From: Verrucomicrobiia bacterium
GTDB taxonomy: Bacteria; Omnitrophota; Omnitrophia; Omnitrophales; Aquincolibacteriaceae
DNA: 52,156 nucleotides
Direction of reading: 5' to 3'
NCBI GenBank assembly: GCA_035495615.1
Contig: DATJFP010000014.1
Span: forward strand, 1-52,156
The notes beneath the pieces are model-generated. The model saw nothing but the letters and a program-made list of their open reading frames with translations. It did no database searches and was not told the DNA's origin. Made by a program: the position numbers and the translations under genes. This document shows positions 1 through 42,676 of the stretch, in pieces (the stretch's first letter is position 1; each line of letters opens with the position of its first letter).

Positions 1-3000
1 GTGACCACGCCCTGGATTTCGCCCTGCTCGCTCACGAGAACCAGGACTTCCTGGTCCGGAGTAAGCTGTTCCAGCGTTTCGAGGCCGCGCGCTTCGTCCA
101 CATCCCCATTTCCCAAGGCCTGGCTCATGACCGTGTCGAGCTGTCTCGCGGCTTCGCGCTTTTCCGCCTCGCTGATACCCGCCAAAAGGTCGCGGGAACG
201 CAGAAGTTTTCCGATGCCGTCCCTCGAAGCCGCGGCGGGAATTTCCAGCGCCAGTTTGCGCTGGAGCGTCTCCGGCTCCGGAATGATCTGCCGAAGCTCC
301 GCCTTGGCCGTTGATTGGCGCAATTCGCTTTTCCCGAGCCAAAGGTCGTCTTCCGGCGGAGCGGGCGGAGCCTGCGGTTCCTCCGTTCCGGACGCGGGCG
401 CCAGGCGCTCGAGATTTTCTTTGATGCCGCTCCCATAAGTCTTCAATTTTTGCAGGCGAATTTTCTCATCCAGACCTTGGTCCAAATTGGCATGAATCTG
501 CTTGAGGAAACCGGAGATGGAAAAGGGTGTTCTGGCACCGTCTTCCGACTCAAGGCGGAATATTTCCAGAAGGATTCTCTCGAATTTTCTATCGTTAATT
601 TGATAGCCGGCGGAATGAAGGGTCAGCAGGGTAAGAAGCCGGATGAGCATCTCACGAAGCTGCGTTTGCTCCGTCGGGACTTTGGCAAGAACGCCCGCGA
701 GGCGCTCCTGAGCGGCGGGGAAATTATCCTGGTCGCCGGAACTGCGGGGAAGCGCCAGCATGGCAAGGGCTGCGAGCAGGTCGGCTTCCACGCCTGCCTT
801 CCGCGCTTCTTTGAGATCGAGATCCTCGTTCAGCATTTCCAGGACCGGCATCGCGATCGCGGGATATTCCCTCAAAAAGTCCGGATAAAAGCTAACGTGG
901 ACGTTCGCGCCTGCGTCCGGCGGGGCATATCCCTGCAAGATATTGTTATGCAGCATGATGTCGGCGACCTTTTCGAAGTCCTTCGGGGAAGTGACCGCGG
1001 CCAGACGACCCAGCTGCTCGACATAGAAATTGACGAAGGCCGCGAAATCTTCTTTCGGGGCCGACAGCTCCTCGTTCAAGCTGTTCCGGTAGGCCAGAAG
1101 TTTCCGCAGGCGGATTTCCTTGTCCTCGCCGCGGTCCAGATAAGCACGGGTTTGCTTCAGAAAATCGGGCAGAGTAAAAGGCGTTTTGGAACCGTCTTCC
1201 GATTTGAGAAGGAATATTTCAGTCAGCGTTTTCTCGAATTTTCCGCCGCCGATTTTATATCCGGCCCCATGAAGGACCAAAACCGCAAGAAGATGGCTGA
1301 TCGTTTCGCGGACCTGAGTCTGGTTCGCTTTGACTTTGGCGAGAACACCGGCGAGACGGTCCTGGACCACGAGAAGATTGTCCTGATCCCCGGACCTGCG
1401 AGGCTGCCCCAGCAAAGCGACGGCCGCGAGCACGTCGGCTCCCACGCCCGCGGCCACGGTTTTTTCGATAAATTTATTGTACAGGGCCGAGTACATCATT
1501 TCCAGAACCGGGATCGCGATCTTGGGATAGGCGGCAAAAAAATCGGGATAAAAACTCAGATGCTTCCGGAGGTCCACGCCGGGCTGCGCGAGATATTCGA
1601 AAGTGCCGCTGCGAAGGACCAGCTCCAGGATCCTGTCGAACTCCTCGCCGGAAGTTTCTCCGGCCAGGCGTTCCATCTGCTCGACGTAAAAATCCAGAAA
1701 TCCCGCGAAGTCTTCTTTTTTGATCTGCGAATGCCGCACGATTTCCTTCAGGAGCAGAAAGACCCTCGCGAAATTTCCTTTGAACTTTTCCCGCAGGGCG
1801 CGGAAAACAGGCTCCGACAAGAACGCATCCATATCCCAGATCACCGCTTGCCCTTTTTCTCCGCCCAGCGAATATTCGGTAAAAGCCCATTTGGCGGAAC
1901 CGGAAGAAATAAATGTCGAACCGGTGACGTCGCCCAAATCCAGCACTTCTTTACGGGCAAAATCGACAATCAAGCTATGCCTGTCCGGGCCGGCCTGCCG
2001 GAGCATGAGGCGTGAGCCGTCATCCGAGAAAGTATGGTCGAAAAATTCCGACCCGGTCAGGGAGGTCAAGTCCTCGCCCGTTTCAAGATCCAGCACTTGG
2101 TTATTGGGATGGACTCCCCTGTCGTCATCGGGAAGGTTCTCAAAACGAAGGACCGCTTTTTTACCGTTCGGTGAAACCTCGATCCTCCAGGCCTTCTGTC
2201 CCAGGACCTGCTTGGTCTGCCGGTTGAAAAGCCGGGAAACTTCCCTCTCCTCCTCGTCCTGGACCTTGACGAGGAACCACGGGCCCTCGCCCAGCCGGGT
2301 CACTTCAAGGATGCCTTCGGGGATCCTCGCTGCGAGATCTTCGCCGGTTTCGGCATCGATAAATTTTTTCGTCTTGCGCTCGTTGTAATCCGCCGTTATC
2401 CACAACCTGTCTTCCGTCAGGCGGACCTGCCTGCGCTCCGGCCCCACCAGGGCCTCGACGTCAAAAGGCTGGCCTTCATACTGGCCGGTTTCGTAGTTAT
2501 AAAGCACCGTTTTCCCGTCTTTCAAAAAGACGCGCGCCCGCTTGCCGTCCGCCAGAGACGAAACCTGCCAACCGCTCACCGGGTTTCCTTCATACGGCGG
2601 CAGATGCGGGACGATTTCGATCGCGGCGTCCGGGTTATCAAAATGGATGATCTTTTGCGGGTCGTCGCCGCTGATGCCGGTCGGGTTGGCGCCTTCATTA
2701 TAAAATCTCAATTGGCCCGGCCCCCAATGAAGCGCCCAGGTCTTGATGCCCGGCACGGAGTAAATCTTGCCCGTTTCGATGACAATGACCTCATCTTTCC
2801 CCCCTCTGCGGTCGTCCTGGACATAGGCTTTCAAATCCGGCGAAAGCAAAAGGCCTTGGTCGTAGGCGCTGATCGTGATCGGCGCGCCGATCGGCGCAAA
2901 AGTGTCCGCGTCATAAACTTGCCGGCCGATGAGCACGCGCTTCTCGTCGTCCGAAAAAACTTTTCCCTGGTCTTTCAATTTATGCTGTTCGCCGGTAACG

Positions 3001-6000
3001 AGATTGATGAGCACGCCGCCTACCGTCACCCATTTTCCGTTCTTTGAAAATTGGGCCTGGCGCCCGTTGACCTTGATCTCCTGGCCTGTCCTGTGATTGA
3101 CCAGCCGGTAAACGCTTTCCCGGGTTCTGCCGCCCAAGTCCAGGAAAGCGGACCAGCCGCTGTCCAGACCGTGGAAATCGTCATACATGAGACGCGAGTC
3201 TTTGAGAGCATCCATGGGCTGCAAGACTTGATAAGCCGCTTCGTAATCCGCGGGCCTTCCCAAAACGCCCGCGCCGGCCGTGAAGGTTTGCTGGTAAGCA
3301 CGGTACAAAAGAAAAATATTTTCCCACATCCGGCCTTTCGCGCCGGGAACCTCCGACAGCTTCCGGACTTGATCGACAAGCCGCGCATTGTCCCAGAATT
3401 TACCCAGTAGTTCTTCCTGGAAAGCGGTGCGCGCCCGGGCGGGAAAAGCTTCTTCGACATTGCTGATTTCGAATTTGCCGCCGAGCAGTTCGCCGAGCTC
3501 CATGGATGCACGGACTTTATCGCGGCTCGGCCGCAAAGGAATGGTCTGGCCCGAAGGGGTTTTGAGATAGACGATCAAGGCATCCGCATCCTCCGGATCG
3601 AGCGACGGATCTCCCAGCACCAGCATGTTTCCGTTCGCGAGCCGGACCTGGATTTGCACCACTTCGCCCTGCGCGTTTCTCACAAAAGACGGCGAGGCGC
3701 TCCCGAAAAGCACCGGAACAATGCCGGCGATCGGCGCACGCGAAACGCTGACGGTGAGGCTTGCGGGTTTCGCCGGGGCCGCAGCTTCGCGCAATTCGGC
3801 TTTCTTTTCCTCCCCTTCCGCAGCCGCAGGAGCTGCGGGCTTGTCGCGCGCCTCGAGATAAGCCCGGAATTTTTCGCGGAGCGCCTGCACCTTTTCGGCC
3901 GGCCATTCGGGAAAGGTCTTCGAAAAATAAGTGGCGATGCGTTCGATCTCACTGCCGCGCCCGCGCGAAGCGTCGCCCATGCCGTCGGGATAGCCGAGCA
4001 TGAATTCGAGATAATTTTCGAAGTCTTTTTCCGGAAGCGCGGCAAGATCGGGAACGTGCAGCGCTTCGGCCGTGATCTGCCAGGGCTCGCCGTGGAAATT
4101 CTCGAGCGCGGCGAGAAGCGCGCGCAGCCGGTGGAAGCCGTCGGTCGTGACCTGGATCTTCAGAGGCTTGGAAGGATCGGCAAAGCGCGGCAGGATTTCG
4201 TCTTTGATCTTCTTCAGGCTTTCCTGCAGGCTCTGCTGCGTCTGCTTCGAGACTTCTTCGAGGATGACGCGCGTGGGATCTTCTGTATTCTCCACGCCCT
4301 CCTCTTTCAGGATAAACCGCATCACCTTGGCCTCGGTCAGGTTTTCCCCTTCGGCGGCGCGCAGGTCGCGGAACCGGGCCGCGGATTCCGGGCGCACGCG
4401 GTCGTAATAGGCCTGCGTGTTTTCGATCAGCCGCGCCGTGCCGCGGGCCTTGCCGGTCGCAGCGATGATAGGAACGACGAATCCCGGCGATACCGCCTGA
4501 TACCAGGCTGTCATTTCCTTCCACTTCCGCGCCGTGTTGACAAAGGTCTCGGGGCTCGGACTGCCCAGCGCGAGGATGAGCGGCAGCACCTGGCCGGCAT
4601 CCTCCTGCGTGAAAACGGGCGCGGAGCCCGGTACGTCATGGCGCGCCAGGAAATTCAAGCCTTCCTGGGCCTCGGCGGCCAGCGGGCCCCGCAGCGCGGC
4701 CGCATCCGTGCGAAGTTCCGGCCGGGCTCCCTTGAGCCCGGCACCGAGAACGCCCTCCGCGCTCGAAGCGCGGAGCTCCGGCCGGGCTCCCTTAAGCCCG
4801 GCACCGAGAACGCCCTCCGCGCTCGAAGCGCGGAGCTCCGCCTTTGGCTTTCGCGCGGCGGCGCGCAGCTCGATGATTTCGAGCTGCCTCGTTAGGATTT
4901 CTGAAACTCGCGCGCGGCGGTCGTTGTCCTGGTCGATGCCGAGGCCGCCTTTGATGTCCTGGAGATTTTTCAGGGCTTTCTCCAGGTCCGGCCCCTCATT
5001 GCCATTCAGTTTGGCGCGCTCGTGATAAGCAATGCCTTGATAGAGCAGCGATTGCGGGTCGTCATGATGACGGTCCAGGCCGAGCTGGGCTTCTTCGATC
5101 ACGCGGTCCCAGTCCTTTCGTTCTTTCAGGACCTGGAGATACGCGTGAAGCCAGCCAAAATCCGTGCCGAGATCGCTCTTCCTTGCCGCGAGCTTGCCGC
5201 GCAAAGTCTCGAAGGCTTTTCCGGCGTCTTCGAATCGCTGCATTTCGACGAGCAGCATGGCGAGTGTGCCGAGCGAATTCTCGGAGTCGGGAAACTTTTC
5301 CGCCAGAGCTTTCAGATACGTCAGAAGCCCGTCTTCGCCTTCCATCACGCCGTAATACGGATTGTCCGCTTTGTTGGGATCTTCGAAAATTCGTCTCCGG
5401 CGCGCGCCTGGTTCGGCCGGGGGTTCGGGAAGCGCCGGGCCATAGAGATGCCGGAGCTCGATCAGGACAGCCTTGCGGTTGATGTATTCTTTGCCCGTCC
5501 GCTCGAGATATTCCCGGGCCTGGCGCACGGCCTCGCGGTAGCCTTCAGACGTTCTCTTGAGATAGTGGTAACGCATCATGCCGATGACCGGTTCGGCAAG
5601 CGCTTCCGGCTGTTTGTGCCCCATGAACAATTCGATGACGCCGCGGGAAAAATCCAGGTAGCGCGCTTCAATTCCCGCCTTGCCCGCGAACGTTCCATAA
5701 AGTTCATAGAGATTGGTGTTGCGCGGATTGGCGCGGAGCGCCCTTTCGAAGATGTCCGCCGTCTTTCCCACGAACGCGGCATCCCCCGCGCCTTTCGAGG
5801 TTTCGTATTGTTTCTTGTAGGCTTTGGCGAGCCATTCGAGAAGGCCGGGATGGTCCGGGAAAAGCGCGATGCCTCTTTCATAAATCGGAAGAGAAAGCCG
5901 GGCCCGCTCCTCCTCGGGAAGGGAGAGATCGCCCAGATAAAATTTATTGGCCGCGCCCAGGAAGATGCCGGGATCTTTCCGTTTCTCCGCCTGGTCCAGG

Positions 6001-9000
6001 AGACCGGCCAGGAACTCCTCGGCCTCCTTTTTCTTGTCCACGGCAAGGGCCATCTGGTAAAAATATTGGAAGGCGCTCTCCAGCGGGGCGTACTGCAGCG
6101 ACAGATAGCGCTTGTAACCGTAATAAGCCTGGAACGCTTCCGATTTGGTCTTGGCACCCGTATATCGATTCCGGTGAACATCCGCGATCATATTATGGTA
6201 GGCCACGGCGAACGGGGCCTGGCGCAGGATGCGATCGCCGAATTCGAATTTCTTCCTGGAGTCCCCCGAAGTGTTCCAGCCGTAGAGGAAAAGCGCCAGC
6301 AGGACTTCGCTGTTGTCGTGGACCAGGACGCGTTTGTGCTCGCTTTTGGCGGCCGGCAGGATGATCTCACGCACGGGCCCGCGCCGCGTCACGGTCATTT
6401 CGCTGTCCGCGACGGGCTGACTGAAATAATTGTCCCACGTCACGTCCGCGACCACGAGATTGCCCTCGCCTTCCTGCGGCGGCAGGAAAAACACGTTGGC
6501 GGCATGGGCAATCTTTCTTTCCCGGCCGTCTTCGTCATAGGAGTAGCTGACGTCGGTGAGATGCACGTCTAGCCCGATCTGCTGCCCGATCAGATAAAAC
6601 ATGGTGGCATAACGCACGCAGTTGGATTTGTTCTCGTCGGTCTCCAGGTTGAATTTGCCGGAACCGTAGACCGGGAAATAGTGGCGCAGGAGCTCGCCGA
6701 TTTTCCTTGCGGCCGTCAGGTGCAGTTCGCGCAGCGCCGCCGGATCGTTCTCTCTCGCGCGCGCAAGGCGCTGGAATTCTTCGCGCACCGCGGCCCAGTC
6801 GTTCGAGAACGCATCCCACCGGTCCTCGCCCACCCATTCCCTGGCCAGGACGTTTTTCAGACCCGGCTCCCGCCACCGCCCGGCCGTCGCCAGAAAATCC
6901 CGGTTGGGAATCTGAATCAGGACTTTGTCGAGCGAGAGGCTGAACCGCTGCAGCAGGAAGCGCTGAAAAATGCGCATGCGCTTTTCAATGCCCGCGTCCG
7001 TCAGCTCGGCGCGCTGCTCCGCGCTGAACCACCGGTTCAAAAACTTCTGGATGACTTCAACGGTCGCAGGGTCTGCGTCCTGATTTTCCAGGCCCAGCTG
7101 CGCACGCATCCTTTCGGCCAACGCGCCAAAATAATTACCGAGCTCCGTGATTTCCTCGGATCTCGGGCCGCCCTGCCTGCCGAGCTCCGTGAGCGCCTGC
7201 TGCCACGCGAGAAAATCCCGGTAAAAAGCTTCGGGCACGCTTTCCCAGCGCTCGAACGGGCTCAGATTCAATTGCTTCATTTCGGAAAGAAACGTGATCA
7301 TATCTTCGGTATTCATGTTGTAATTGACGGACATGACTTTGCCCAGCCTCTGCGTACGGTCCGCGAACAAAATCATGCGGGACTCCGCCGCCCCGGCGGC
7401 CGGGCGGTCAAACCCCATGTCAATGCCGCCGAGAGCTTTGAAAACGAACTTCAATTCCTGCTCCAGATCCAGATTGCGGGCCACAATCGGCCGGCGCATC
7501 GCTTCTTCGAAAAGGGCGCGGAGCGTCTTGGTCTCGCTGCGCAGTTCCGCCCGGAGCGCCTCCGTACGGGCGCTGAGCTTCTCTTCCGCCCTCAATTCGC
7601 CGCGCAAGACGGAGGCCATGCCGTCAAGCTCGCCCGGGGTCACGCGGATCGCGTGCTGCAAAAACTCTTTTGCCTTTTCGAGCCCGTCCTCTTCATAGCC
7701 GCCGTTGGCCAGGTACACCAGTCCGAGAAGCGCTTCGAAATACGTTCCGGCCCTATGGGTCTTGGTGCCGGCAGGAAGCGCTGCCAGCCCCTTTTCATCC
7801 ATAAGCGCCTGCAGCAGCCGCTCGAGGCTGACATTGCGGGTCATGCCGAGGTGGAAGGAATTCAATTCCGAGGCGGGCCTGCCCCGCATCTCCGGGCTGT
7901 GCCAGATCAGGTCCGCCATGATCACGTCGAGCACCGCGTCGCCGCGCTTGGCCAGGCGGTAGACCTCCCGGACTTCCGGCGCCTCCGCCGGAAGAAAATC
8001 CTGCGCCAGCGGAAGAAGCCGCGCAAACTCGACGGCGGCCGCGGGATCCGAATCTCCCGAATAAATTCCCTTGGCCCACGCCTTCCGCTTCTGCGTTTGG
8101 AAGAACGGACCGGACAGGCGGCTGACAACGTCCCATTGCCTGTCGGAAGCCAAGACGCCAAGGATCATTTGAGCCAGAGTGCCGGGCGCGGGCCTGGATC
8201 CTTTCCTGCCCGTCTGGCCGTAAAATTCGCGGTAACGGCGGGCCGTGGCCGGGAGAAACAGCTCCCGGGATTCATAGGCTTGCTTGATCATGGCGTCCAG
8301 GGCCGTGGATCCCAATTCCGGTTCGCGATTCATGGCCGCGTCAACCACGGCGAATTTAACCGCAAACGACGCGACGTATTCGAGCTTTTCACGATTCTCG
8401 CGGAACGTTTCCGGATGCACCATGCCCTGGACCAGCGACGGTTCGGAAAATTTGACACCCAATTCTTTCTCCAGCGCCGCGGCCCATCCCTCGCCGGCTT
8501 GGTCCTCGGCCCGCAGCTCCCCGCGTCGAAAAACCGTGAGCGCGAAACTTCCGCCCTGCACGGTGGGCGGCGTGACATGGGCATCGTAAAGCGCGAAACT
8601 CCGGCGGAGGTGGGACGCGAGGCGGTCCAGGATGAGTTCGGCCACTTCCGCGTCCGCGGGCTGAACGGGGATGCTGACCGTCAGGCCTTCGCGGTTGAGA
8701 TCGCCGCTGAGCGTCGCGTGGACCAAGAGAGGCGCCAGCTGCGGCGCTTCCTTTTCGATCATGTGGGTGACCAGGTCCAGGCTCAAAACCTGGCCGTAAA
8801 GATCGATCATTTCCCCATACGCCATTTCCTCGGGATAAGTGGCCCGGAGCTGGCTGTAAAGATCCAGAGGATGCTCGCGGACATACTGAACCATGTCGGC
8901 ATGCCTTTGCGCGACTTCGTCCGGCCCGCCCGCCAGCGCGAACTGGACGTCCCATGGAATCAGAAGGTTGCCCTGAACCTCGATCCCGCGCAGGTGCATG

Positions 9001-12000
9001 AAGACCCGGTCTTTTTCCGGAGCAAAGGCCGTCACGATCGTGACCGGGTAAGGATTGTTGCGAAGCGGGACCTTGTCCACCTGGGCCTGGATGCCGGGTC
9101 CGGGCTGCACCTGGGCCTGAGGAATCTGATCGACCGGCAGCGACAGGACGATCTTCACGCCTTCCCCGGGCCGCAGCGTGCTCGGCCCCAGCTCGCGGAA
9201 GCCGACGTGCAAAAAGGAAAGCCGTTCCAGGGCGTACCAGAGGCCCATCCAAAGGCGAGGCCACTTGCGCAGGAATTCCCACTTGGCCCAGCGCTTGGGA
9301 TAAAACTCCCAGGTCTTGCCGTCGAACTCGACGCGCACGGTCCCGCCGTGGCGGAAAACCGCGGGCGCGATGAAATTATAGGAAGCGTGGGCGCGCTTCA
9401 TGCCGTCGTTGTCGTAGGAGATGCCCCGCATCGAGTCTTTGATGCGTTCCGCGTCGGCCGTGTTGCGGTTTCCATAATAATAGATGAGCTGGAGCTGCCC
9501 ATCCGCGATGCGCCGGACCGCCGTGACGAAATTGTTCGGCTGCATGTGGCGCTGGTTGTTCTGGACGAGCTCAGTGATGGGCTGGTGGAAATCCGAAAGG
9601 TCGAACTGCCCGCCGCCGTAGCCGGTAACGGACGTCGGGAGGTACGAATCGGAATATTCGTACGGCCGCTCGACGGAAACGGACTTGCCGCGCTCGCTGC
9701 CCCGTTCGATCTGGAAGGCGTTCCAGAGCGCGCCGTGGAAAAAGAAGAGCCGGAAATTTTCTCCGGAAAGGCGGCGGATGTCCTCGATGATGCGGCGCAC
9801 GTTCGGATCGTTGAAGGTTTCCTCGAAGATCATGTCGACAGCCCGGTTGTAGCGCCGGACTTTTTCCGCGTCGAACTCGTCCTCGAGCAGCGGCAGGAAC
9901 GTCCGCTTGACCTGCTGGATTTTGTAATAGATGTTGCTCTCCGGCACCATCTCCGAAGGGCTTGCCGAATACCAGATTCTCTGGAGCGCGCGGAACGCGT
10001 CGTTCAACTGCGCCTGGACGTCTCCCGCCGGCGCGGCGGAAGGAACCGCGTACGAAGTGCGAAGTTCTGATTTTGTTAAACGCACGGAATCTTTGCCCTG
10101 CGGCCGGGCTTCGAAGCCTTCGAGGACCGCGGGCTTTTTCGCGCGGTACTGGGACGCGCGGTTGTGGAGGATTTGCCCGCCCGGGACCAGAAAATTGCGC
10201 AGCTCCTGCATGTGTCCCGCGTAAGTGAGAAGCGGCAGCGTCGAGCCTTCCGGGTTTTGGACCTTTTCGCTGTAAAGATGGTTCAGGCCGAAATGGCTGA
10301 AGATGAAATCCACGGATTCCGGAGAAACGTACCGGCCCAGGTTGCGGGCCGAATCCAGGATGAACGTCACGTTCGAAGGCGCCTCCTGCCAGAGCGAAAA
10401 GTAGGCGTCACCGAAAGCCAGAAGGCGGACGTTCGTGAGGCCGCGTTTCTGCAGTTCCCGGGCGATTTCGATGAGCGCACGGCCGTTGGCCGCGCCCCAG
10501 TCCATGACCGTGAAAGTGCGCCCGGGCTCGGCCTGGGCACGGGCCGCGATTTCCTCCACGAGATCCGTCCCGAAATTCCCGTTTACTTCCGAGAGCGGGC
10601 TGTCGGTTCTTTTGAGATAATGCGCGGCCGCGGTCGAAGCGCGGTTCACGCGGAGTTTTCCCCGGCTGTTCAGGTCCACGATGACGCCGAACAGCGACTC
10701 TTCGGAAGCCAGCCGTTCCAATCTTTCCTGCGAAAGCCCGCTCACCAGCTGCGCGCCGCCCCGCAGCGTGACGCTCGAAGCACGCAGCTCGGCCCTTGCC
10801 GGAGGTTCTACGGAAAGAAGCGTGGGAAATGGGGCCTGGGACCGGGCATCGCGGACTCCTTGATAAACGGCCCAGGCGCCGAACAAAAGTCCCAGCAGCA
10901 TCCAGACAGGCTGGGCATACCGGAAGGCCGCCGCAATCCCGAGAGCCGCGCCCATGATCCCGGCGACTCCGGCGGGAAGCCCGGCCGTCCATCCTTCTTC
11001 ATTCGTCAGGTAAAGGGTGTTGATGCGGCTCTGCAGGCCGCGGACCGCGGCGCGGCGGCGCCGGATGTCGTTCTCATAACGCTCTTGTTCCGCGGCCGGA
11101 GCCTTCTCTATCTTTTCGAGAAGCGCCGTGAACTCGCGGGTCTTGTCGACGGCCTTTTGGAACGACCGGAGCGCGGAGATCTCGTATTGTTCGCGTCCCC
11201 ATTCATAATCATTGAGAAGACTTTCCACGTCGCCGGTTTCGCTGTGAATCTTCGACAGCGCGTTCCCCACCGAGAACGCGGCTTCGCCGTTTTCTCCCGT
11301 GCGCAGCTCCGGATGCGCGGGCGGAAGATTCTCGACCGGGATGGAAAGCGTGACCTTCACGCCTTCGGCGGGCCTTAAATTGCTGGGTTTCAGGTCGCGG
11401 GAACCGATGGCCGCAAAGCTGAAATTGGCGAGCTTCTGCCACAGCCAGTTCCACAGGCCCGGCGAATTCCGGAGGACGTCGAGCAAGGCCCAGCCCTGCG
11501 GGAAAAACTCCCACGACTTTCCGTCGAACTCCACGCGGATCACGCCGCCGTGACGGAACACGCGGCGGGAAATTTCATTGTAGAAAGCATGGCGCCGCAC
11601 CCCGCCGTGGCCGCTGACGTAGACTCTGCCGAAAACCGACTGGCGGATGCGCGCTGCGTCCCCGGTATTGCGGTTGCCGTAATAAAAGGTAACGTCGAGA
11701 TTGTTTCCGTTCACCCGCGGCACGACAAGCGAAAAGTTGGCGGGCTCCATGTGCTTGAGATTGTCCTGCAAAAGCTCGACAAAGGCCGCGTCGAATTCCC
11801 TCAGATCGTAAAGATCGGCGCCGGCATACTCGGGGGCCAGGTCGAACGCCTTGGCGTAGCGGCTGGCCGCGCTCTGATACGGGACCCCGCGCTGCCGGGC
11901 CGCGGGCTCGTTCACAAACGCATTGAAGACCGCGCCGTGGAAGATGAAGGGATCGTGGCCGGTCATTTCCACGATTTGCCGGATTTGTTCACGGGCCTCC

Positions 12001-18000: not shown

Positions 18001-21000
18001 AAGCGCTCCACGGAAGCCACAAAGATGTCCCCTACCAGCGCGAGGACTTCCGGGCTCATGCCGGTGGAGGCCGGGTCGTTCTCCGCCGCCGGGAAAAAAT
18101 GATTGAAGATCCCGCGCGCGAATTCCCTTTTCACCACGACATCTTCCGGACGGCGCGCATTCAGCAGCCCGTTCTCCCCGGTCAGCAGGTTGTTCAGCAG
18201 GATGCGTTTCAGGGAAGGCGGCGCGTAGCGCATGTGCTTGGGCAAAAGCTCGAAATCGATGTTCTTGGTGGAGCGTGCCTGCACGAGAGGCTCCGGCATG
18301 AGATCCGGGTTCTGTGTCAAAATCCACATGACCGCGTTTTTGCGGTCCGTGCGCGACGCGGCGGACATGAGGCTCTGCACGGCCTGGAAAGCGGCATTCG
18401 CGTTGGTCAGTTCTTCGTCGTACTCGAGCTTGTGAAATTCGGAATACAGCCGCCGGGCACGACGGAAAAGCGCGGCATCGGGAAGCGCGTGGCGCTCGAA
18501 CAATTCGTCCAGCGCCGTGTCCCGCACCTCCGACGGTTCCGGAAAAGATTTTTCCAGGAATTCGAGCTCGCGCTGAAACGCGGTCTGGTCCTCCGCCGTG
18601 CGCATCTCGGACCGGACTTCCTCCGGTTCAACATTAAGCAAGACCTCCTCAGAAGCTCGGAGCTCGCGCCGGGCTTCCGTAAGCCCGGCACCGGGAATGC
18701 CCTCCTCGCCTGAAGCTCGGAGCTCGGCTTTTTGCAGGCTGCGTCCCATTTTCATCAAGGTGGCGCCGTACCGCAATTTTCGCTGCGGGTCCGCGAGCAG
18801 CGGAATGACCAGCTCGTAGAAGCTCATGATCGCCCGCACGCGGGAGGCCGTCAGCCGGATCTTTTCGTTCTGGAGGTTTTCCCATTCCAGGGGCAATTCG
18901 ATCACGCTGTCGCGCAAAAACTCGTTGATCTCTTCTCCGGAGGACGCGTCGAGGATGCCGTCGATGCGTCCCTGCGTGATCTTGGTGTGGTTGTGGATCT
19001 CCGGGAAAAGCTTCCGCTCGAAGAGGTCGATGAGGCCGTCGCGGAAAAGATTCGGCTTCGGCAGGAACTGGGCGATGGTCCGGACGGCGCCGGCAGGATC
19101 GTTTTTCCCGCCGAAGTACTGCTGCTGCACCAGGTATCTCTTGAAGATTTTTCCCTTCGGCCCCAGGACATCCACGGCGCTGGAGAAAGCTTTCAGGTAG
19201 GACTGCGTTTCCGCCGTGGCCTTGGGTTCTTTATCCACTTGCGGGATCTGGAAATCCCCCATGAGTCCCATGAAGTCAGGAAAGAACTCCAGGAAATCCT
19301 CGCCCTCTTTCGTCAGTTTGAGGAAGAAAATGTCCGACTGGTTAGTGGGCCAGATTTCTTCGGGATTGAAGCTCACGAAGCCCTGGCCGAGCCCGGAAAT
19401 AAAGGCGCCCAGCTGTCCGCGGTTGGCGAGAAACACGCCGTGCGCGTTCTTGCCCTGTTCTTCGTAGGATTTGACCTTCACGGGAAGGGCAAGCCCCCCA
19501 TTGCCGTAAACCGACGGTTTGACGGACGCCGTCATCAAGCCCTGGAAAGCCGTAGGGGTCACGCGCGCCTGCGCCGTGTCTCTTTCTTCGAGAAGGCGGG
19601 TGATGATCAGCCCGTTGAGCAGGATGAGGAAATCCGTGCCTGCCGCGGGCAGGTCCGTTTGAAAACGCCCGAACTTCACCCGCTCGGTCCCCGGAGCCTG
19701 CCGGAGCAGGCTGTTTTGGTGGACGGCGATTGTTTGGAGCTGCGCGCGCGAAAATCCCATGAGCTGCCGGAAATAAGCCTGGTGTTTCGGCGTCTTGGGA
19801 TCTTCGAAAAAGGCGATGGGAATCTGGGAATCCGGGATCGGCGTTTCATCTCGGGTTACCAGGGCGGCATCGAACTCCCCGATGGAGGGTTCCTGCTTTC
19901 CCGTTTTCCCATCCGGGACTTCGTAAGACAGGATCGCGTGCCGGCTCAAAAGCTCGATGACGGGATAAACCTCCGCGGGCGTGGGATCGGCGGCGCCGAG
20001 CATGCGCACGCGGGCATCGATGAATTGCGCCATCAGTTTGCGGTCGACCTGCGGCGCCCCGTCCTGCCGCGCGGCAAGATAGACGTTCTCGAAAAAGGCG
20101 GCGAACGAGGCCGCGTCGTCGGTGTCCTGCAGGGGTTTTTTCTCCATGTAGCCGGTCACGAGCTCGTACGCATCCGCAAAACCCACCAGGTTCGTGAAAA
20201 TTCTCATCAGGTCGGCGTGCGGCGGATACGTGATCGTTTGCCGCCCCACATAAAAGGAAGTCTGGGTCCCGACCACGTACCTGAGGATTTCCTTACGGAA
20301 ATATTTTTTGTAGATCGCGAGATGCTGCTGGAGGACGCGTTCGAAGTCGGCCGGATTCGCAGCCCCTTTGAGTTCATCCGCGAGAACCCTGTAAGCGGCT
20401 TCGGGCTTATCGAGAAACTGGAAGGAAAGGCGCTGCTTTTTCTCGCGGTCATCAACGCCTCCCCGGGCTTCAGGCGGCGTCAGGCCGTTCTCGCGCTCAT
20501 AAAGAGGCGACCGTATCTGGCTTGCCTGCGCCGCGATCCCGGCAAACTGCAGGTATTCCAGCAGCCTGTCGGTCTTGGCGCCGTAAACCTTTTCTCCCGA
20601 GGCATACTCGCCCAATTCCCTTTTCACTTTTCTGTTTTCCTCGTCGTACTGCCCTTGGGACAAGGCCCGCGGCATATCGGGAGCAAGCGCTTCCGCGCGT
20701 TTCTTGGCTTTCTGGGCAAAAGGACGGATGGAAATGTAGACCTTGTTATGCTCTTCCTTCAGGATTTCCCGGAAAACCGTGTACCGTACGGCGTCATAGG
20801 CCTTGCGCCGGTCCGCGGGCGTCGCGAGCGGCCAGAACGCCATGTTCGTCCTGTAAAAGCCGGAGTCTTCGATTTCCTCTTTCGCGGTGCCGAGATAAAT
20901 CCGGGCTTCTCCCGTCTGCCAGGTCAGCTTCTGTTCCCGGTCCAGGGTCGTTTTTCCGAAATGCGAGAAAACCGAGTACGGCACGAGCCTCAGGCTTTGG

Positions 21001-24000
21001 GCCGCGTCGGGCCTGCCTTGGAGCAGGTCCGCGACGGCCTCCTGAAGGGTCGCGGGCGCCTTGGCCCGGCCCTCGAACGCCTTTTCGAAATCCGCTTCCT
21101 CGACATCGAGGTAATGGGTTTCGAATTCGCGCCGAAGCGTGGCGATGGCCCGCAGCGCGCCAAGCTTGCGCGCCGTGGGAATCTGGGATTCGCGGATGCG
21201 GGCGGCGATGAGCGCCAGGTCGCGGCTGAGCTGCTTCCGTATTTTTTCGGGAGCTTTGTTCTTCAAGTCGTTACTGACAGTGCTGGTCAAGGTGGCATCC
21301 TGCCCGTCCAATTCCTTGACCAGGGCAACGTCGATGTCTTCGGCCATGTGCGCGCCGAGCTGGGAAGGCTTCAGTGAGCCGGAATAAAATGGAATTTCCT
21401 TGTCAAGCGCGCTTTCGATCGCATGCGCCGCGTCCAGGATATTGGCCGCGAAAACGCGCTGGGCCACGGCCTTACGGCCTTCGGGCGTTCCCGCGAGCTG
21501 CTTCTCGGAGGCAAGCACGGCTTTCTCATGGGCAATGCGGCTTATTTCCATGACCTGCCGGACGTGCCTGGCCCGGCCGAGAGCCGCTTCCAGGTCCGCG
21601 GCCGTTTTCAATTTATGGGCAAAGGCCGAGATGCCGGCCGGCCCTCCGAAATTCGAATAGGCCTTGGCGTCAAGCTCGTGGAGCGGATTGTCCCAGCTCG
21701 TCGTGCTCGGCCGCGGGCTGTTGAAATAGAGGTCCATGTTGGAAATGCGCAGCTTGGGATGCGGATGCGTGGAAAGCGTGTGCATGGCCGTGCTCTCCGG
21801 CGTGATGCGGGCCAAAAAGGACAAGAGCGGCTTGAGCATGCGCGGCGAATAGCCCTGAAAATCGCTGGGAGTTCCCCCCGGCTGCCGCCGCGGATCATCG
21901 CGCGCGTCGCGGAGGATGCGCACCGCTCCTTTGTCCGCATGCCATTCCGCCTCGCGTTTCAGGGCAAGCAGCGCCTGGATCTGCGTTTTGTTCTCCTCCT
22001 TGTTTTTTTCCCATTCCGAATAATTCAGGCCTTCGAAGGAGCTGTGCTGCAGCACGTGCGTCAGTTCGTGCGCGAAAATCGCCGCGATCATCTCTTCGGA
22101 AAATTGCGCGTCCACGCCTTCCTGCTGGGTGTAGCGCGCCAGTTCACGGATCAGGCCGGCGTGAATGTAAACGTCGTCGTGCTCAGCAAAGACAAAGGCA
22201 TTGATTTCCGGCGAATCCACGATAAACAGCTTGCCGCGGTAAGCCGGAACGCCTTCGACTTCCGCCACTTTGTTGTAGCCGTACACCACGCGGTCGAAAA
22301 TCTTGAAGATCCGCTCGACCTCGGGCATCTTCGATGTCCTCGGGAGGAAGCCGTACTCCATGCGCATGCGCTCGTGATACGTGTCGATGTAATCGTTCAG
22401 GTCCGCGCGGATTTCCTGGATCGTCTTTTTCGAGCTCTGGGAAGCGGCATTCAGGAAATCGTTGTCGTCGGCGTACACCGCGGGTGTCCGGTCGAAATTG
22501 AGTCCGCTGAGCTCGTAAGGTTCGCGGACGTGCAGCGAGACCTCGAGGCTGATGCTTTTTTTACCGCCGGCCAGCGGTGTGGATTTGGCCTGCCCTCCAA
22601 GCTGATGGAGCGGAAATCCTTTCCGGAACTCCAGGGCAAAGGCCTTGAGCTTGTCGACAAGCTGGGCGTCGTCCGCGGCGGTGAACGACAGGACGGCCTT
22701 GGCGGGCTGGCCGGGCTGGGCCGCGACGGCATTAAATTCGAGCCCCTGCGCCGCGGCCGTTTGCTGCGCAAAACCCTTGATCTGCGCGACGGCCTCACGG
22801 GTCCGCGCCTCTTCAGCCTGCTGTCGTTCCCGCTGGAAATCGGTCAATTCCGCCGCCGGCTGCGCGCGCAGTTCAGAGCGCTCCTCCTGCGGCGTGGCCG
22901 TGGCCGGTCCTTCGTCGCCATGTTCCTCGATGAAAGTTTTTTCCGCGGCATCGAACGCTTCACGGCGCTCGTTGATAAGCCGGCCCATCCGCTGCTGGAG
23001 CGCCTCGAGCGCATCGAATTTTCCGCGCAGCCAGGCTTCCCAGCCGGCTTCGCTGCGGTCCGCGGGCGCGTCGAACTTCGCGATGACGGGCGCCGCCGCG
23101 AGAATGGCCTCGGCCTCGCCGGCCCTGTCGCCGAAAACCATGGCCAGCCGGTCGCGCACCGTATCGCCGGTCAGTTCCACGGTCACGTCTGCCCGCGCGT
23201 AAAAAGGATAAAAGTGGACCACATTGAAAAGCTTCGCCAGCTCGTGCAGTTGAGAATACGCGAGCTCGATTTTTTCGCGCAGGTTCTCGAAGCCCGGCGC
23301 CACGACGACGGCGCCGTTCAGCCAGGCCTGGTGGATCGGCGGGACAGTGGAAAGATCGAGAGTCCCGTCATCGGGATACTGGTATTGAGAAGAGGTTTCG
23401 TGGTTGCCGGTCAGGTCCACGGCATAAAAGGCCGCGCCCGCGAGAGGATGTCCCGCGGGATAAGACGCCGGTCTGTCCGCGGGATCGGCCAGGAGAAGCC
23501 CGTCCATGTCGATGGCCACCGGATTTCCGTCCGGCGTGACGAGAAAGGCGTCGGGCTTGCCATCGCTCAGAAGCGTGGCCTTGCGGCCGTCCTGGGCCAG
23601 CGCGCGCTTTTTCAACGCCTCCAGAATCCTGCCGTAAATTTCGTGCTTCTGCGACAATGAAAAAGCGCGGAAATCTTTTCCGAAATTGAGTCCTGAAGGA
23701 TTCTTCACCAGAAGCAGGCGGCGTTCCTGACTCGCCTCTTCCGGTAAGGGAAGGCGGACAATACCGTGCCACAGGTACTGCGGGAAAATGCCGAGCGCGC
23801 CGTCGGCGTTGACCGCGGCAAGCGCTTCCGCGCTCCGCGTCACGGTGCGCGGCAGGCCCGCCGCCGACATCTTCATCGCGTACGACGTGCTTCCGTCCGC
23901 GGATTTTCCGACAAAAACCGTGAGAAGATGCCCGGCCTCCACGACCGGTTCCATGCGGATTGTCTGCCCGTCGATGCGGAGGTCAAAGGCTTCGCGGTCC

Positions 24001-27000
24001 GCAAGCTTCGAAGCAATGTCTTCCGGCAAGTCCGCGAGAACGCCTCCCGTCTCGCCGCGCAGGAGCGCCTGGCCATCCGCCACTTCGACCTCACGCGTGC
24101 CGGGTTCGGCACGCAATTCCGTGCGGCCGGCGGGGCGCGATTCCGGATTTATGACGACAGCCCCGGGCTCGACCATCGGAAGGATCCAATCCACGGCCTG
24201 GGATTTATCGAGCAGCGCCTGCACCTCTTCGCGCGTGAGCGTCTCGCCGTTGAGCAGCCGGATATAAAGAGCATCGGACTCGGCTTTGGCGTCCGGGGGA
24301 TAAAATCCGCGCTTGAGATAAAAAATCGCGTTTTGAACCGGGTCCCCGACTTTGGTGTTGCGGATCTGGGAGGCGGCGGGCAGCACGAATTGCCTCGGCT
24401 GAAATTCCCGGAACAGAACGGCAAGTGAATTGATGAACAGGTTGACCGACAGGCCTTTTGCGCGGAATTGCGGCAGGACATCGAAGGCAAGGGTCACCTC
24501 GTCGCCGCGGCGGCCGTAGATCATATAACCCACCGCGTCGTCCAGCGGCGGCGTGGCCGAACTCTGCTTGGCCCTGTGAATGAGAAAGCCCAGCGCTCCG
24601 GTCGAAACTTCCGGCACCATCGTGACCAGGTCCAGGCCCTCCCGGGGCAAGTCGAGATAGGCCGATCGTCCCTGCGCCGCGTAACGGCTCAGGTTTTCCA
24701 GGTGCTTGAAATCAAAGTTGCCCGCCATTCCCGGCGCACTATGGATGGACTTCCGGAGCGCGCTGATTTCTTCGTCCACCGGTCCCACCCGCGGCGCGGG
24801 ATACAATTCCGCGTCCTTGCGCGAGCGCAGAATCACGCGCCGGATGCGGTCGCGGTAATAGTCGGCATTCAGCTCCCGCAGTTCGGATTTTCCGCGACGC
24901 AAGGCCAGCACCGGAGGATTGATTTCTTCCTCCTGCCCGCGCAGCTCCGGATGGGCCAGGAGATCAAGGGCTTTGTTGAGGTACCGGTTGACGTCATCGT
25001 AATAAGGTTCTCCCGGCCGGATGACTGTCGGTAAATGTTTCTGGGCTTTCTCCAGCAAGGCCCGGGCTTCGTCAACCGGGACGGCCATCGACGTGGCTGC
25101 CAGAGCCTCGGCGACCATGAAACTCAGGACGTAGAGAGTCAACGGAAAGGCGTGATATCCCAAAGGTTCCATCAGCGCATGAAGCATGCTCCAGTGCTCT
25201 ATGGCGACGGGGAAAATGTAATCGACGGCCTTTTGTTTCAGGTCCGGCTCGGCGGTGAATGTCAGCACCTGGACGAGATACTCCCAATAATTCGGGTTTT
25301 GCTGCCACACGGGATCGTCGAACAGGGCATCGCCGGCGAGATCTTTGGCCTTCCACCAGGAGCCTCTCGGACGCGCCGCCTTTTTCCAGGCCACGTAGAG
25401 ATGCCTGTCCTCCACCGCGCTGAAAGCCGCTCCCTGCGTGAGAATCCCCTGCTTTTCCAGACGGCCTAGCTCGTCGTATTTTTTTTGCGCGACGATGACG
25501 GGCAGGATATGCAGCGAGAAAATGCCGTCGGGACGCAGAAGCGACGCGCCTTTGCGGAACGTGTCATTGTCGAAAATCATGCCCTGGACATAAAACATGT
25601 CCAGCCCGCCCTTGGTTTCACCCAGAAGGTCCGGCGTAAACACGTTGGCATCGGCTCCATAAAGCACGACCTGCGCCTCGCCTTCCGCCAGAGGGACCCG
25701 GAAATCAAATCGCGGGATTTTTTCCCGGCGTCCGTCCGGGAAAGCAACCGTCTCGTAAGTCCGCGCAGCCGTGACGTCCTTTCCGTAAAGCTTCAGGGTG
25801 AGCGTTTCCTGATCTGCATAATACACATCGGTGCCTACGAGTTTGGCGGGGTTAAAGATTTCCAGCATCCTCTGGATGTCGGCCCCGATGCCGGGATAAT
25901 AAATTTCGCGGATGGGCCGGGCGCCTTTTTCGCGCAGCATGCCGCGGAACATCTCGATGTCCCACGGTTCCGCCGCGCGCAATTCCGCGCGGCCGGCGCG
26001 GAGCTCGCTCTTGACGGCCAAGACTTCGTCTTTCAAGCCTTTCCAGTCGAGCCTGTCCAGCACGGCCAGGTTTTTCATCATCTCGTCCATGCCGGCTTCC
26101 GCGCGATCGTCCGGCATGTTCATCGTGAGCGCGTACAAGAAATACTGCAGGATTTTGAGCCGGAAGACATCGGAAAGAAGATCCATCTCTTCCGCCGTGA
26201 GCGGAAACGATCCTTCCGCTTGATAGGCCTTGAGAAACTCGCCGATCTTGGCGAGGTCCAGGCTGGACCCGTCCGCCTGAAAGCGGATCATGAATGCATT
26301 GGCAAGATCGGAGAGCCGCGCGTCTTCGTGCGCGTATTCGAAATCCATGAGCTTCAGGCCGGCAGGTGTGTAAAACGCATTGTCCTGGTGGTAGTCGCCG
26401 TGAACGATGGCTTTGGGAAGTTTCGCGGCGCGCTCCGGCGTGAACGCCTGGCGCAGCCGTTCGATCTGATTTTTGAGGATGGGAAATTCGGAAAGGTAAC
26501 GGGCCTGCGCGTACGTGAGCGGCGGACCGCGCGACTGCAGTTCGCTCTGGAGCTCTTCGAGTTTCCGGAGCTTGGCTTCCAGGTTAACGATGGAAATCAT
26601 CGGTGGCTCTTCTTCTTCCGTGTACGCGCGGCCGGCCGGCGCGAACGTCCGCGAGGCCGCGTGAAATTTGGCAAGTGTTTTCGCCGCGATCGCAAGATCC
26701 TCGCCTTCGACCTGTCCCCAGGAATAGCGCTTCCCTTCCACGAATTCATAGAGCACGTACGTGCCGTCCGGCGTTGCGGTGGCGGCTTTACCCTCGCGGT
26801 TCTTGATGATCCCGGCCGCGGCGACGCCGGCAGCCTTGGTCTGTTCGATCAGCGAATCTTCCCGATCCACGAGATCGGGCGAGTTGCGGTAAAGAGGCTT
26901 CTTGAGGATAAATTTTTTCTCGCCCTGCGTGACCCGGAAAACGTTGGGATGGCCCGGATCAAAAGCTTCGATCGTGGCGCCGGCCAAATTGTATGCGGCC

Positions 27001-30000
27001 AAGGCCTCCTCGGCCGACCGGAGTTCTGCTTTGGACTGTGATTGGCCGGACGGCGCCGCCGGAGTTTCAGGCCCCAGGATTTCATCCAGCACCGGCGTCA
27101 GCCTGCGCAGGGATTCCTGCTCGATCCTCATTCCCAAGAGCAGGTGCTTGGGCTGTTTTCCCCAGCGGCTCTGTACGAAAGCCGGCACCCAGAAGGGCAA
27201 GGTGCCCTTTGCCGCCGCGATCTCGGCCTCGGCCCGCGCATCGTTGTAGCCTTCCACTTCGGCATTGACCCGCTGCATGAAAGCCAGCTCCGATTCTCGT
27301 GAAAAAGCAAATCCGGCATTCAGGCCGAGCCCGACGTGCAATTCTCCCTTGAGCTGGTCGCGGGTGTAGCGGGTCACTTGAAGCTTAAGCGCGGCTTCAA
27401 TCTGGTCCGCAAATGCGGCACGATTGCGGATGAAACGCGAAATCATCGTCTTGGTGATTTCCGGCTCGCCCACGACGGCCTGGTCCAGGATGTCGGTCAC
27501 GTAAAACCGGCTGAGCGGGATCTTCTCGGCGAGAAAGGCCTGCGCGAAATAGCCGAGCGCGTACCGGATTTTCTGCGGGCTCATTTGCTGGTCGAGCATG
27601 TATTTGTACAGCGGCAGACTCAGCGCCTTCTCAGCAACTTCCGGCGTCACATTTTTGTTGCTGCTCGTCACCGCGTACCCGTGGATCTGATTCCGGACGA
27701 GTGCGAACTGCACGGTCATGGCCAGGCCTTCCTTGACGATGACTTCTCCCAGGTCGCTTTTCAATTCCGATTCCCCTTTTTCCTCGCTGATCTTCCGGTA
27801 CTCGCTTTCGAGGCTCAATTTCTCGCCGGCAAGCGTGGAATCAAGCGTCACTGTCCGCCGCACGCGGCGGGCTTTGTCGATCTCTCCAAGGCGCGTCCGG
27901 ATTTCGGCGAGCCGCTGGGCTTTTTTACGGTCTTCGGAATCGTGCAGGAAGGTAAAAATCGCGTGGTCGATTTCGTGGACCAGGAAGCTGGCCAGATTCA
28001 CGTAATTGTGCTGCAGCGCGGTGCGCACCGTGTACGGGTTCATGAACTTGATGACGTCGAAATTCGTTTTGTCATCGACCGTCATGTAGTTGTAGCGGCC
28101 GATGATGTCCCGGCCCTGGATGCTGTCGACGGAAAACATGGGGATTCGTTTTTGCGCCTTCCCCTTGGTGATGACGAGCACGGGAATCTGAATGCCCGGC
28201 GGCAGGTTTCCAAGGCTCGACTTGACGTCGGGATGCCGGTTCTCCATATCGATCGTCGCGGCCGCATCCGCCGGGTTCGCCCATTCGATCTGGATGTGGA
28301 CTTTGTCTTTGCCCCACACAAGCCCCGCGTAATAATGGTCAAGCCAGCCTCCGAACGTCTGCCGGGCTCCCTCGCCGTCGAACAAAAACGCTTTTTGCTG
28401 GAACATCGCGTTTAAAATTTCCTGGGGATGAGCCTGTCCCTTTTTGGCTTTCGCGAAAGCGGCCTCGATCTCGCCGCCCTTGGTTTCCCGCTCGAAGAAA
28501 GCGTCGATCACGCGGTTCGCGTCGGCTAAGGGATCCACGCCCCTGTCTTTCGCGGCCCGGTTGACGATGAAGGCGGCTTCCGCTTCCACCATGCTGTCGC
28601 GGCTCGCCTTGAAGTCTTCCAGAAAAGGCGTCCCCGTCAGGCGCAGCGCTTCGGCATTGCCCAGCAGCAGCGCGGTCGCGATCACGTTCCGCATTTCCGC
28701 GCGCAGCGGCGCGAGCACGGGGTCATCGGAAAATTGCGGCCCGTCGTAAGGCGTCAGGTCGAAGACCGCGCTGATGGTCTCCGCGGAAATATGGCCGGTG
28801 CCGTCCAGCAGCCCTTTTTGTTTCAACACTTCCCGGGTCTGCGATTCCGCCGGAGGATTGTAATAAAGCGACAGCCAGAGGCCGTAGAAAAGCTCGCGGT
28901 ACACGCCGGGATCGGAAACGGCAAGCTGCTGAAGCACCGGCTTGAGCTTCTCGACCTCGGGATATTTCCGCTCGTCCACGAACCGCAGCTCGCTTTGGGC
29001 TTCGCCTCCGGCCTGAGCCACCGAGCCGTCCGCCGTTTTGACGTCCTGGGCCGCGCTGGTTTCCGGCGGCCGGTTTTCCGGAAAAACCTGCTGCGCGATT
29101 TGGCGCAGCTCGGCGGCCTTGGCAAGCGCCTGGCGTCCCGCGGCCTCGGCCTGTTCGATGGCGGTGAAAAGCTGCTGGGCTTTTTCCGCGGGCACGGCCA
29201 CCTGGCCCGCGCCCGGTTCTTCCGCCGGGGCCGGAATGATTTGCGCGGACGCGTTGCCCGAGGCCCGGGAAAGCCCGATCAAAGCGGCCTGCTCGGCCTG
29301 GTCCGTCGTGAGCTCCGGATTCTGCCGGAGCACCGTGCCCACGGCGCGGTCCGCCATTTGAGTCACGAGATTGTTGGACGGGAGAGTTTCGCGGAGCTCC
29401 GCATTGGCGGCCGCGCCGCTCGTGGCCGCTTCGTAATCGTTCATCACGCCTGCAAGCACGGGCGCGGTGCGCAGTCCTGCCTCCTGCACCTGCGGGGAAA
29501 AAGCTCCGGCCTCGACCCGCTGCCTCAAATTCGCCAGCACGCGCTGGGAAAGCTCGGACCTTCCGACGTATTCCAGCGGAAGCCGTCCCACCGCCGACGG
29601 CAGGGACTGCATGGCAAGCCTCGCGGCCTCCGGATCCCGGATCCAGCGCACGACGGGCATGCCGCGGTCCAGGTGCACCGGCGGATTCATGGCCGCGGGT
29701 CCGGCCTTGCCTTCGAGGAGCGGCGCGATCGCGGCCGCGGAAATTTCCTTGCGGCGGACCAGCGCTTCCAGCTTTTGTTTGAATCCCGCGAATTGTTCCT
29801 GGAAATTTTTCCACATCTCGTCTACGGCACCGTCGCGCGCGCCCGCGATCTCCTCTTCGAGGGACCGGACGAGTTCCTCCGGCGTGGCGGCGCTCCGCGT
29901 TTTCTCGTACTTGTCGTGGTAGACCTTGAAAACAAGATCCACGTAGCGCGTGTAGTCGGCGGCCTGGTCCAGGCGGCCTTCCTGCGCGAGCTGCCGCAGG

Positions 30001-31881: not shown

Positions 31882-32205
31882 TTAGAACAGGGTTTCGGGC
31901 TTTACCGGCAAGCCTTCTTGTCCGCCCGGGATGAATGCCGCGCCGAGATCCCAGATGCCGCTGCCTGTGCGGGCAATGGCCTGGAAAGTTCCGTCGACAA
32001 AGCCCGCGGCATGGCGGACAAACGGTTTCCCCGCCTGCTCGTGATATTCCTGGATGGTGATGGGGATTTCCAGGAAGCCCGTCAGGATATTTTTGACCCC
32101 GCGGATGAGCGTGTGTTTCATGTTCTCGGTATACGTGCCTGCATAGGCGGAAGCGGATGCTCCAAGCAGCAGAACGGCCAATAAAAATGCGGTTTTTTTC
32201 TTCAT
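31882..32205 (-). CDS. TIGR04073-like exosortase system-associated secreted protein
   Basis: A 107-residue protein with a signal peptide (residues 1-22, ending AYA) and a short conserved body with RGVKNILTGFLEIPITI and a Gly/Ala-rich GFVDGTFQAIARTGSGIWDLGAAF segment, ending in PVKPETLF. RG-x-x-N-x-x-x-G-x-x-E-I-P is the signature of the small TIGR04073 family found in genomes with exosortase/PEP-CTERM-type sorting. Its molecular role is unknown. The start has a strong Shine-Dalgarno (AAGGAGGGGG). It is transcribed towards the giant gene, 248 bp away, so co-transcription is possible but separated by the inverted repeats. Confidence 0.8.
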   Translation of the reverse strand: MKKKTAFLLAVLLLGASASAYAGTYTENMKHTLIRGVKNILTGFLEIPITIQEYHEQAGKPFVRHAAGFVDGTFQAIARTGSGIWDLGAAFIPGGQEGLPVKPETLF

Positions 32206-40181: not shown

Positions 40182-40199
40182 GCTCACCCCTCACCCTCC

Positions 40200-40223
40200 C
40201 CTCTCCCCGTTTGCGGGGAGAGG
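40200..40223. repeat. REP-like palindrome inside the operon
   Basis: A perfect 10-bp stem (CCTCTCCCCG) with a TTTG loop occupies the 76-bp gap between the transglutaminase-like gene and the ABC ATPase gene. The flanks continue an imperfect pyrimidine/purine symmetry. It has no T-run and looks like the dispersed C-rich REP-type element seen in many bacterial genomes. Confidence 0.6.
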
Positions 40224-40257
40224 ATAAAGGAGAGGGGAATGAGATCAAGGAGGCTTT

Positions 40258-42659: not shown

Positions 42660-42676
42660 TTTCGATCGGACGGATC

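Follow-up and report, generated by a model that had tools for sequence, protein, structure and literature searches.

What the giant ORFs of Omnitrophota and related phyla do is a long-standing puzzle: few of their domains are annotated, and such chains might act whole or in parts. A 2023 preprint by West-Roberts et al., known to us through citations, reportedly deals with the giant ORFs of Omnitrophota. In the passages that concern them, Seymour et al. 2023 (PMC10066038) describe giant ORFs of this phylum with few annotated domains and poorly understood roles, and a further paper (PMC12419801), in its corresponding passages, describes gigantic Omnitrophota proteins that mix enzymes with toxin-like domains, and Skillet lipocones. 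The stretch of DNA analyzed here (the window, 52,156 nucleotides, the entire contig C14 of a 3.16-Mb genome bin (MAG) of 106 contigs) raises this question for a gene that occupies its left part and is still open at the edge: is this one gene, and does its product act as one protein?

The giant reading frame

The ORF list contains an ORF at 3..31634 on the minus strand that has a GTG start, encodes 10,544 aa and runs off the left contig edge. Codon-position GC is even along the ORF, with a GC3 of about 0.70-0.80 in each block of 1,000 codons. The two remaining sense frames are interrupted by 308 and 158 stops; a chance frame or a fusion of spurious frames is thereby excluded. These results confirm the sequence-only reading, which had reported a stop-free minus-strand frame from 31634 to position 1 of at least 10,544 residues. 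That reading had also called for an extension leftwards to the stop. The last 141 bp of contig C31 are identical to the first 141 bp of C14, an exact overlap that fits an assembler using k=141. When the two contigs were joined, the frame continued unbroken to its first stop at C31:15208, giving a complete protein of 11,005 aa (a 33-kb ORF). The window (1..31634) thus holds residues 1-10,544, and C31 adds only 461 residues. The gene is longer than 20 kb in an Omnitrophota genome, as expected of an Omnitrophota giant ORF, and one uninterrupted frame covers several independent modules, as expected of a polyprotein.

The long frame could in principle be an artefact of assembly or gene calling, or several translationally coupled genes. 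The gene does span a contig break in a MAG, and an SD-like sequence with a start codon is somewhat commoner near the junction tags described below (7 versus 2.6), an excess that may come from the Glu-rich linkers. However, the exact overlap keeps the frame, there is no internal stop, codon-position GC is uniform and giants of similar size occur in many genomes. Methionine is rarer after tags than expected (2 versus 5.1), and we therefore rejected independent internal starts at the tags. An artefact or a set of coupled genes is extremely unlikely. Related genomes also have this N-terminal head, and the open frames behind it reach 11,476 aa, on contigs as long as 310 kb. In the single-cell genome of Omnitrophus fodinae SCGC AAA011-A17 the ORFs that carry this head are shorter.

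Several features around the gene were also recorded. A small gene just upstream of the giant (31882-32205, minus strand) resembles the exosortase-associated family TIGR04073, with 45.6 bits against a cut-off of 50, and the same genome has an exosortase on contig C83. Downstream, a full clpB (C31:12273-15014, minus strand; L011) lies 193 bp from the giant on the same strand. It does not recur beside other giants, and its position looks like coincidence. Genes for a transglutaminase-like protein, an ABC-2-type transporter and an M16 peptidase stand in tandem beside the giant at 38667-45418 on the plus strand. Short repeats near the right contig edge (51600-52156) recur on C38, C62, C5 and other contigs; a dispersed repeat may explain the contig break.

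The head module and probable export of the chain

The first ~640 aa consist of a Sec-type signal-like sequence (about aa 1-29; 31548..31634, minus strand) and a conserved head module of ~600 aa (aa 50-640; 29715..31487, minus strand). Matches to aa 1-979 were found in 54 of 58 related genomes, mostly in many copies per genome, often 15 or more in the same family, and usually at the start of long ORFs. When named genomes were scanned with an alignment as the query, all 79 named loci with the head module belonged to Candidatus Omnitrophota; the same scan with a single-protein query gave no match. Over 23 divergent copies the motifs QxAH, EG, GxE and GGFH are invariant, as are a Tyr and an Arg. 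In an AlphaFold model of the head (pLDDT 88.8), a long helical insertion is added to a small alpha/beta core.

The invariant motifs are reminiscent of the EreA/ChaN/TIKI superfamily, and by eye QxAH, EG and GGFH may be equivalent to the His/Glu/His sites of those enzymes. Both would then have an invariant H, E, H pattern around an alpha/beta core, whereas the large helical insertion sets the head apart. A fold search against solved structures returned nothing significant (erythromycin esterase EreC at E=2, rank 42), and a profile search of PDB sequences gave no match; membership of the superfamily thus finds no significant fold or profile similarity behind it, and the relation is a lead only. 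One could nevertheless propose that the head is a protease, an EreA/ChaN/TIKI-like metalloenzyme, and that the giants process themselves or each other at their tags, since every complete giant seen carries it. Apart from the poor match to EreC and the empty profile search, two observations speak against this. Heads differ as much within one genome as between genomes, yet the tag is uniform in each genome, so that changes in the head are not matched by changes in the tag, as they would be for a protease cutting in cis; and relatives free of the tag still have the head. We consider a proteolytic head improbable.

The N-terminus is signal-like by a hydropathy cut-off in 25 of 26 giants. For the window giant the value is 1.54 against a cut-off of 1.6, and an n/h/c layout can be recognized by eye. 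The window giant contains 2 Cys in 11,005 aa (0.18 per 1000), compared with 8.0 per 1000 in conserved neighbour ORFs (Poisson p 2e-35), and is thus depleted of Cys along the chain in the manner of exported proteins. That modules of usually cytoplasmic enzyme families are free of Cys suggests that the whole chain enters an oxidising compartment. Taken together, two Cys and a Sec-like start indicate that the window giant is probably exported.

The signal sequences of the 26 giants look more alike than ordinary signal peptides, following roughly R.IA...A..FT.TSV.W, as if they were read by a dedicated export route.

Modules and the tag at their joints

Beyond the head, a five-residue tag, R/K-[A/S/G/P]-E-[L/M]-R, which the sequence-only reading had not remarked on, stands between the modules. 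All features below are on the minus strand and are given in the order of the chain. A RAEMR match at aa 978 (28689..28703) lies inside a module and is possibly due to chance. The tag KAELR at aa 1535 (27018..27032) adjoins an APH kinase module (26013..27017; Pfam match aa 1555-1796), which is followed by the double tag KSELR/RAELR at aa 1875 and 1882 (25977..26012). Between KSELR at aa 2249 (24876..24890) and RTELR at aa 2504 (24111..24125) lies a module that is GNAT-like by eye and homologous to a segment of the giant on contig C9 (24126..24875). After RSELR at aa 2919 (22866..22880) comes an M48 peptidase domain (aa 3122-3300; 21735..22271), assigned by Pfam, in which the sequence HELTH is intact. 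The tags KAELR and RSEMR at aa 4302 and 4341 (18600..18731) precede an ABC1/UbiB kinase domain (aa 4642-4870; 17025..17711). RGEMR and RPEMR at aa 5388 and 5399 (15426..15473) and RGEMR at aa 5761 (14340..14354) enclose a module with two TM-like helices and a dockerin-like stretch (14355..15425). A protein-kinase-like module below the Pfam cut-off (12909..14339) extends from there to RAELR at aa 6243 (12894..12908).

Further along the chain, RGELR at aa 6468 (12219..12233) adjoins the first copy of a duplicated module (11316..12218). The tags RAELR at aa 6947 (10782..10796) and KSELR at aa 7188 (10059..10073) come next, and the second copy (8526..10058) then runs to RGELR at aa 7704 (8511..8525). 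An RNase III-like module below the Pfam cut-off (7605..8510) is bounded on its far side by RGELR and RAELR at aa 8011 and 8028 (7539..7604). A TPR-containing module with a weak Pfam match (4845..7538) leads to the triple tag KAELR/RPELR/RPELR at aa 8931-8975 (4710..4844), and a DUF218-like module below the Pfam cut-off (3804..4709) leads to KAELR at aa 9278 (3789..3803). The double tag KSELR/KAELR at aa 10435 and 10444 (291..332) is followed by a GNAT-like module that runs into C31.

The two duplicated modules are 41% identical to each other and matched no Pfam family at the threshold used; their pattern recalls GHKL ATPases by eye. No copy was present in the other giants fetched, and the predicted structure was too poor in quality for use.

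The sequence-only reading had listed the domains of this chain as a remarkable mixture. In our searches APH, M48 and ABC1/UbiB exceed the Pfam cut-offs and this part of the list holds; Ser/Thr kinase, dockerin and RNase III matches, together with TPR and DUF218, are sub-threshold. Its methyltransferases found no match among the Pfam methyltransferase models and, like GNAT and GHKL, are readings by eye. NCBIfam added little beyond UbiB-, APH- and kinase-type matches. Active-site-type residues are in place in the APH (HGDYHQDN and DFE), UbiB (KVGQ and HADLHAAN) and M48 (HELTH) modules, which we take to be the active-site motifs of these families. The mixture is real, but the set varies among giants: others contain FHA, Ser/Thr kinase, DOT1-like and other methyltransferases, HTH_3, HAD hydrolase, histidine phosphatase and WD40 domains. 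Since the module sets differ from giant to giant, domain content is not the conserved property. What the giants have in common is the head module, the tag and the export signature.

The tag is greatly over-represented. In the window giant the strict pattern [RK][SAGPT]E[LM]R occurs 25 times, and ELR occurs 30 times against 7.4 expected. Eight giants of genome G000 contain 75 tags versus 1.1 in shuffles, and six giants of genome G014 contain 40 copies of RSELR versus 0.1. When the residues after 650 of 26 giants were pooled (149k aa), 292 tags were counted against 6.6 expected, while non-giant neighbour ORFs had 6 against 3.6 expected, near chance, and the head regions of the same 26 giants had 3. 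A de novo motif search, which scored all 4-of-6 patterns without prior input of the tag, ranked RSE.R (or RAE.R, R.ELR) first in most related genomes, with log10 p down to -74. Some relatives, among them the ORFs of Omnitrophus fodinae and the genomes G002 and G057, showed no such tag.

In G030 and G039 (families f5 and f7) we observed another tag, GxSLG, with 27 copies against 0.28 expected in G030; the giants concerned are on contig C71 of G030 (L040, L041) and contig C21 of G039 (L154, L155). The G030 giant has 10.1 Cys per 1000, unlike all other giants, and G039 is Cys-poor. The giant at G022:C50 (L151), like L132, is dominated by the internal repeats L.G.GF and DP.ER and retains some RSExR tags.

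The tag can also be used to find giants. Across the whole of G014 the RSELR codon pattern gave 334 matches, compared with 26 for a reversed control. By following clusters of matches that lie beyond the giants already known, we arrived at eight further ORFs of 2,217-10,304 aa with 0 to 0.5 Cys per 1000. The start could be fetched for six of these eight, and all six open with a signal-like N-terminus followed by a diverged head; the remaining two are cut by the end of the fetched stretch. The sixteen giants seen in G014 amount to about 101,000 aa or 303 kb, which is 8.7% of the genome; of the roughly 308 net RSELR-pattern matches, 140 lie in them. Extrapolation from the tag count places the true share of giants in G014 near what may be a fifth of the genome.

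Sixty RSELR tags of G014 are encoded by 57 distinct 15-mers, where codon usage predicts 58.6, and all six Leu and all six Arg codons are in use. This near-expected diversity rules out a DNA repeat as the origin of the tag in that genome. The variable residue x of the tag (RSExR) depends on the genome: it is L in G014, G031 and G000 (with some M), A or V in G041, T or S in G006, and V, M, L or A in G016. Similarity in tag x is 0.83 within a genome, where heads are 34% identical, and 0.39 between genomes; for the nearest head relative in another genome it is 0.37 although the heads are 47% identical (permutation p 2e-4). The heads interleave among genomes, with 57 label changes in the tree against a shuffled mean of 58. 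Judged from these head sequences, the giants are old paralogues, older than the genomes that carry them. Because the tag is uniform over such old paralogues, with its residues fixed and its codons free, it would appear that some factor of the cell recognizes all of the giants, in trans, as protein.

The tag is also concentrated at the joints. Only 17 tags fall inside shared homologous segments, compared with 57 expected (the minimum of 2,000 simulations was 34), and 34 segment edges lie within 15 aa of a tag, compared with 15 (simulation maximum 29). Ala, Pro, Glu, Gly, Ser and Thr are frequent in its flanks, and aromatic residues are scarce. A recurrent motif at module borders that is conserved as protein is what a polyprotein would be expected to have. 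The tag could also be a neutral scar of domain shuffling, a linker peptide brought along by recombining modules. It is true that the same modules turn up in different giants and that the tag is uniform inside each genome, and for G041 the DNA of the tags varies less than codon usage predicts (59 distinct 15-mers among 78 tags, against 77). On the other hand, the identical peptides of G014 come from nearly as many different 15-mers as there are tags, which argues that the peptide was kept by selection and not by recent copying, and the residues next to the tag are not conserved. We therefore hold a neutral scar to be very unlikely.

Proposed processing or docking at the tags

The sequence-only reading had left the choice between a polyfunctional envelope machine and a polyprotein. 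We favour the polyprotein because the modules are separated by a repeated, genome-specific, protein-level tag in disordered-looking linkers; the envelope machine survives only as far as the chain looks exported. On balance we believe it probable, with a good deal of room for doubt, that the giants are exported, effector-like polyproteins processed at their tags. The reading frame, the head, the tag with its border position, protein-level conservation and genome-specificity, and the Cys and signal signature are what we observe; cleavage, the protease and action on another cell are what we infer. In this mechanism the Sec-type signal and the conserved head would take the chain out of the cytoplasm. 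Behind the head would follow about 20 separately folding modules, many of the type of intracellular enzymes (kinases, M48, GNAT- and methyltransferase-like proteins, TPR), joined by flexible linkers rich in A, P, E, S and T that each carry a tag. One trans factor would serve all giants of the cell, most likely a single extracytoplasmic protease whose specificity drifts between species. It would read the tag in an extended conformation and cut, giving about 20 products from the window giant, and this cocktail would work extracellularly or inside a cell that serves as partner or prey. In the tag, R, E and R are interspersed with one small residue and one that is mostly small or hydrophobic, a pattern that would suit an extended strand in a protease cleft. 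Against processing, a stretch between two tags sometimes contains more than one domain, tags can be doubled or tripled, and some relatives show no such tag. The kinase modules would also require ATP, of which there is little outside cells, and this counts against their extracellular action.

The strongest rival to processing is that the chain stays whole, as beads on a string, and that the tag is a docking site for one scaffold, anchor or secretion/chaperone factor, which would read it in trans without cutting. All of the tag statistics show recognition, not cleavage, and double and triple tags with loose spacing would also suit binding by avidity. However, sites confined to disordered linkers at module borders resemble processing sites, and a kinase and an RNase III-like module tied together in one exported chain would have no evident use. 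We judge docking to be rather unlikely, and retain processing as the preferred reading.

Several candidates for a universal processing factor were examined. Caspases (C14) are present in only 3 of 58 genomes and clostripain (C11) in 0 of 58, and both were rejected. Exosortase was rejected as well; it is present in 14 of 58 genomes and is absent from the tag-rich near-complete genomes G014, G016 and G006. A search for gingipain (C25), run without a positive control, found nothing. A conserved neighbour gene was also discarded, as the families that recur beside giants are generic.

A wider proposal, toward which we are almost evenly disposed but lean slightly to doubt, is that Omnitrophota run a cellular polyprotein economy. 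Nearly Cys-free giants would be exported and cut by one dedicated protease at a species-specific tag, and would supply other cells with dozens of effector enzymes; the protease would co-evolve with the tag, and whole lineages would have switched to GxSLG.

Viral polyproteins offer a parallel, with many products per chain and recurrent short cleavage motifs in linkers that drift between species with the protease. Unlike them, the giants are cellular, many per genome share one tag, they are apparently exported, and here cleavage is a deduction. The gingipain/HagA adhesin polyproteins of Porphyromonas are exported bacterial polyproteins cut after basic residues. In contrast to these, the giants carry enzyme modules of many families, and C25 was not found in the uncontrolled search mentioned above. 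PEP-CTERM/exosortase sorting tags are likewise short lineage-specific motifs common to many exported proteins of one genome; they are single and C-terminal, whereas the tags of giants are internal and repeated, and exosortase is missing from tag-rich genomes. The published Omnitrophota giants share with the window gene the phylum, a gene length above 20 kb, few annotated domains, very mixed content and a proposed role in cell contact. A shared head, a recurrent junction tag, its genome-specificity and Cys depletion are not reported in the passages of those papers that treat giant genes. A literature search on Omnitrophota together with polyprotein found no paper. Giants of Omnitrophota are thus already known, while their tag-jointed architecture is, as far as these sources go, new.

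If cleavage is true, this would be a bacterial polyprotein system of a scale that we have not found described. A tag that marks the joints turns the giants into lists of products that can be expressed, folded and assayed singly. It also predicts protein ends that can be searched for in existing metaproteomes, and co-variation with the tag provides a route to the factor that recognizes it.
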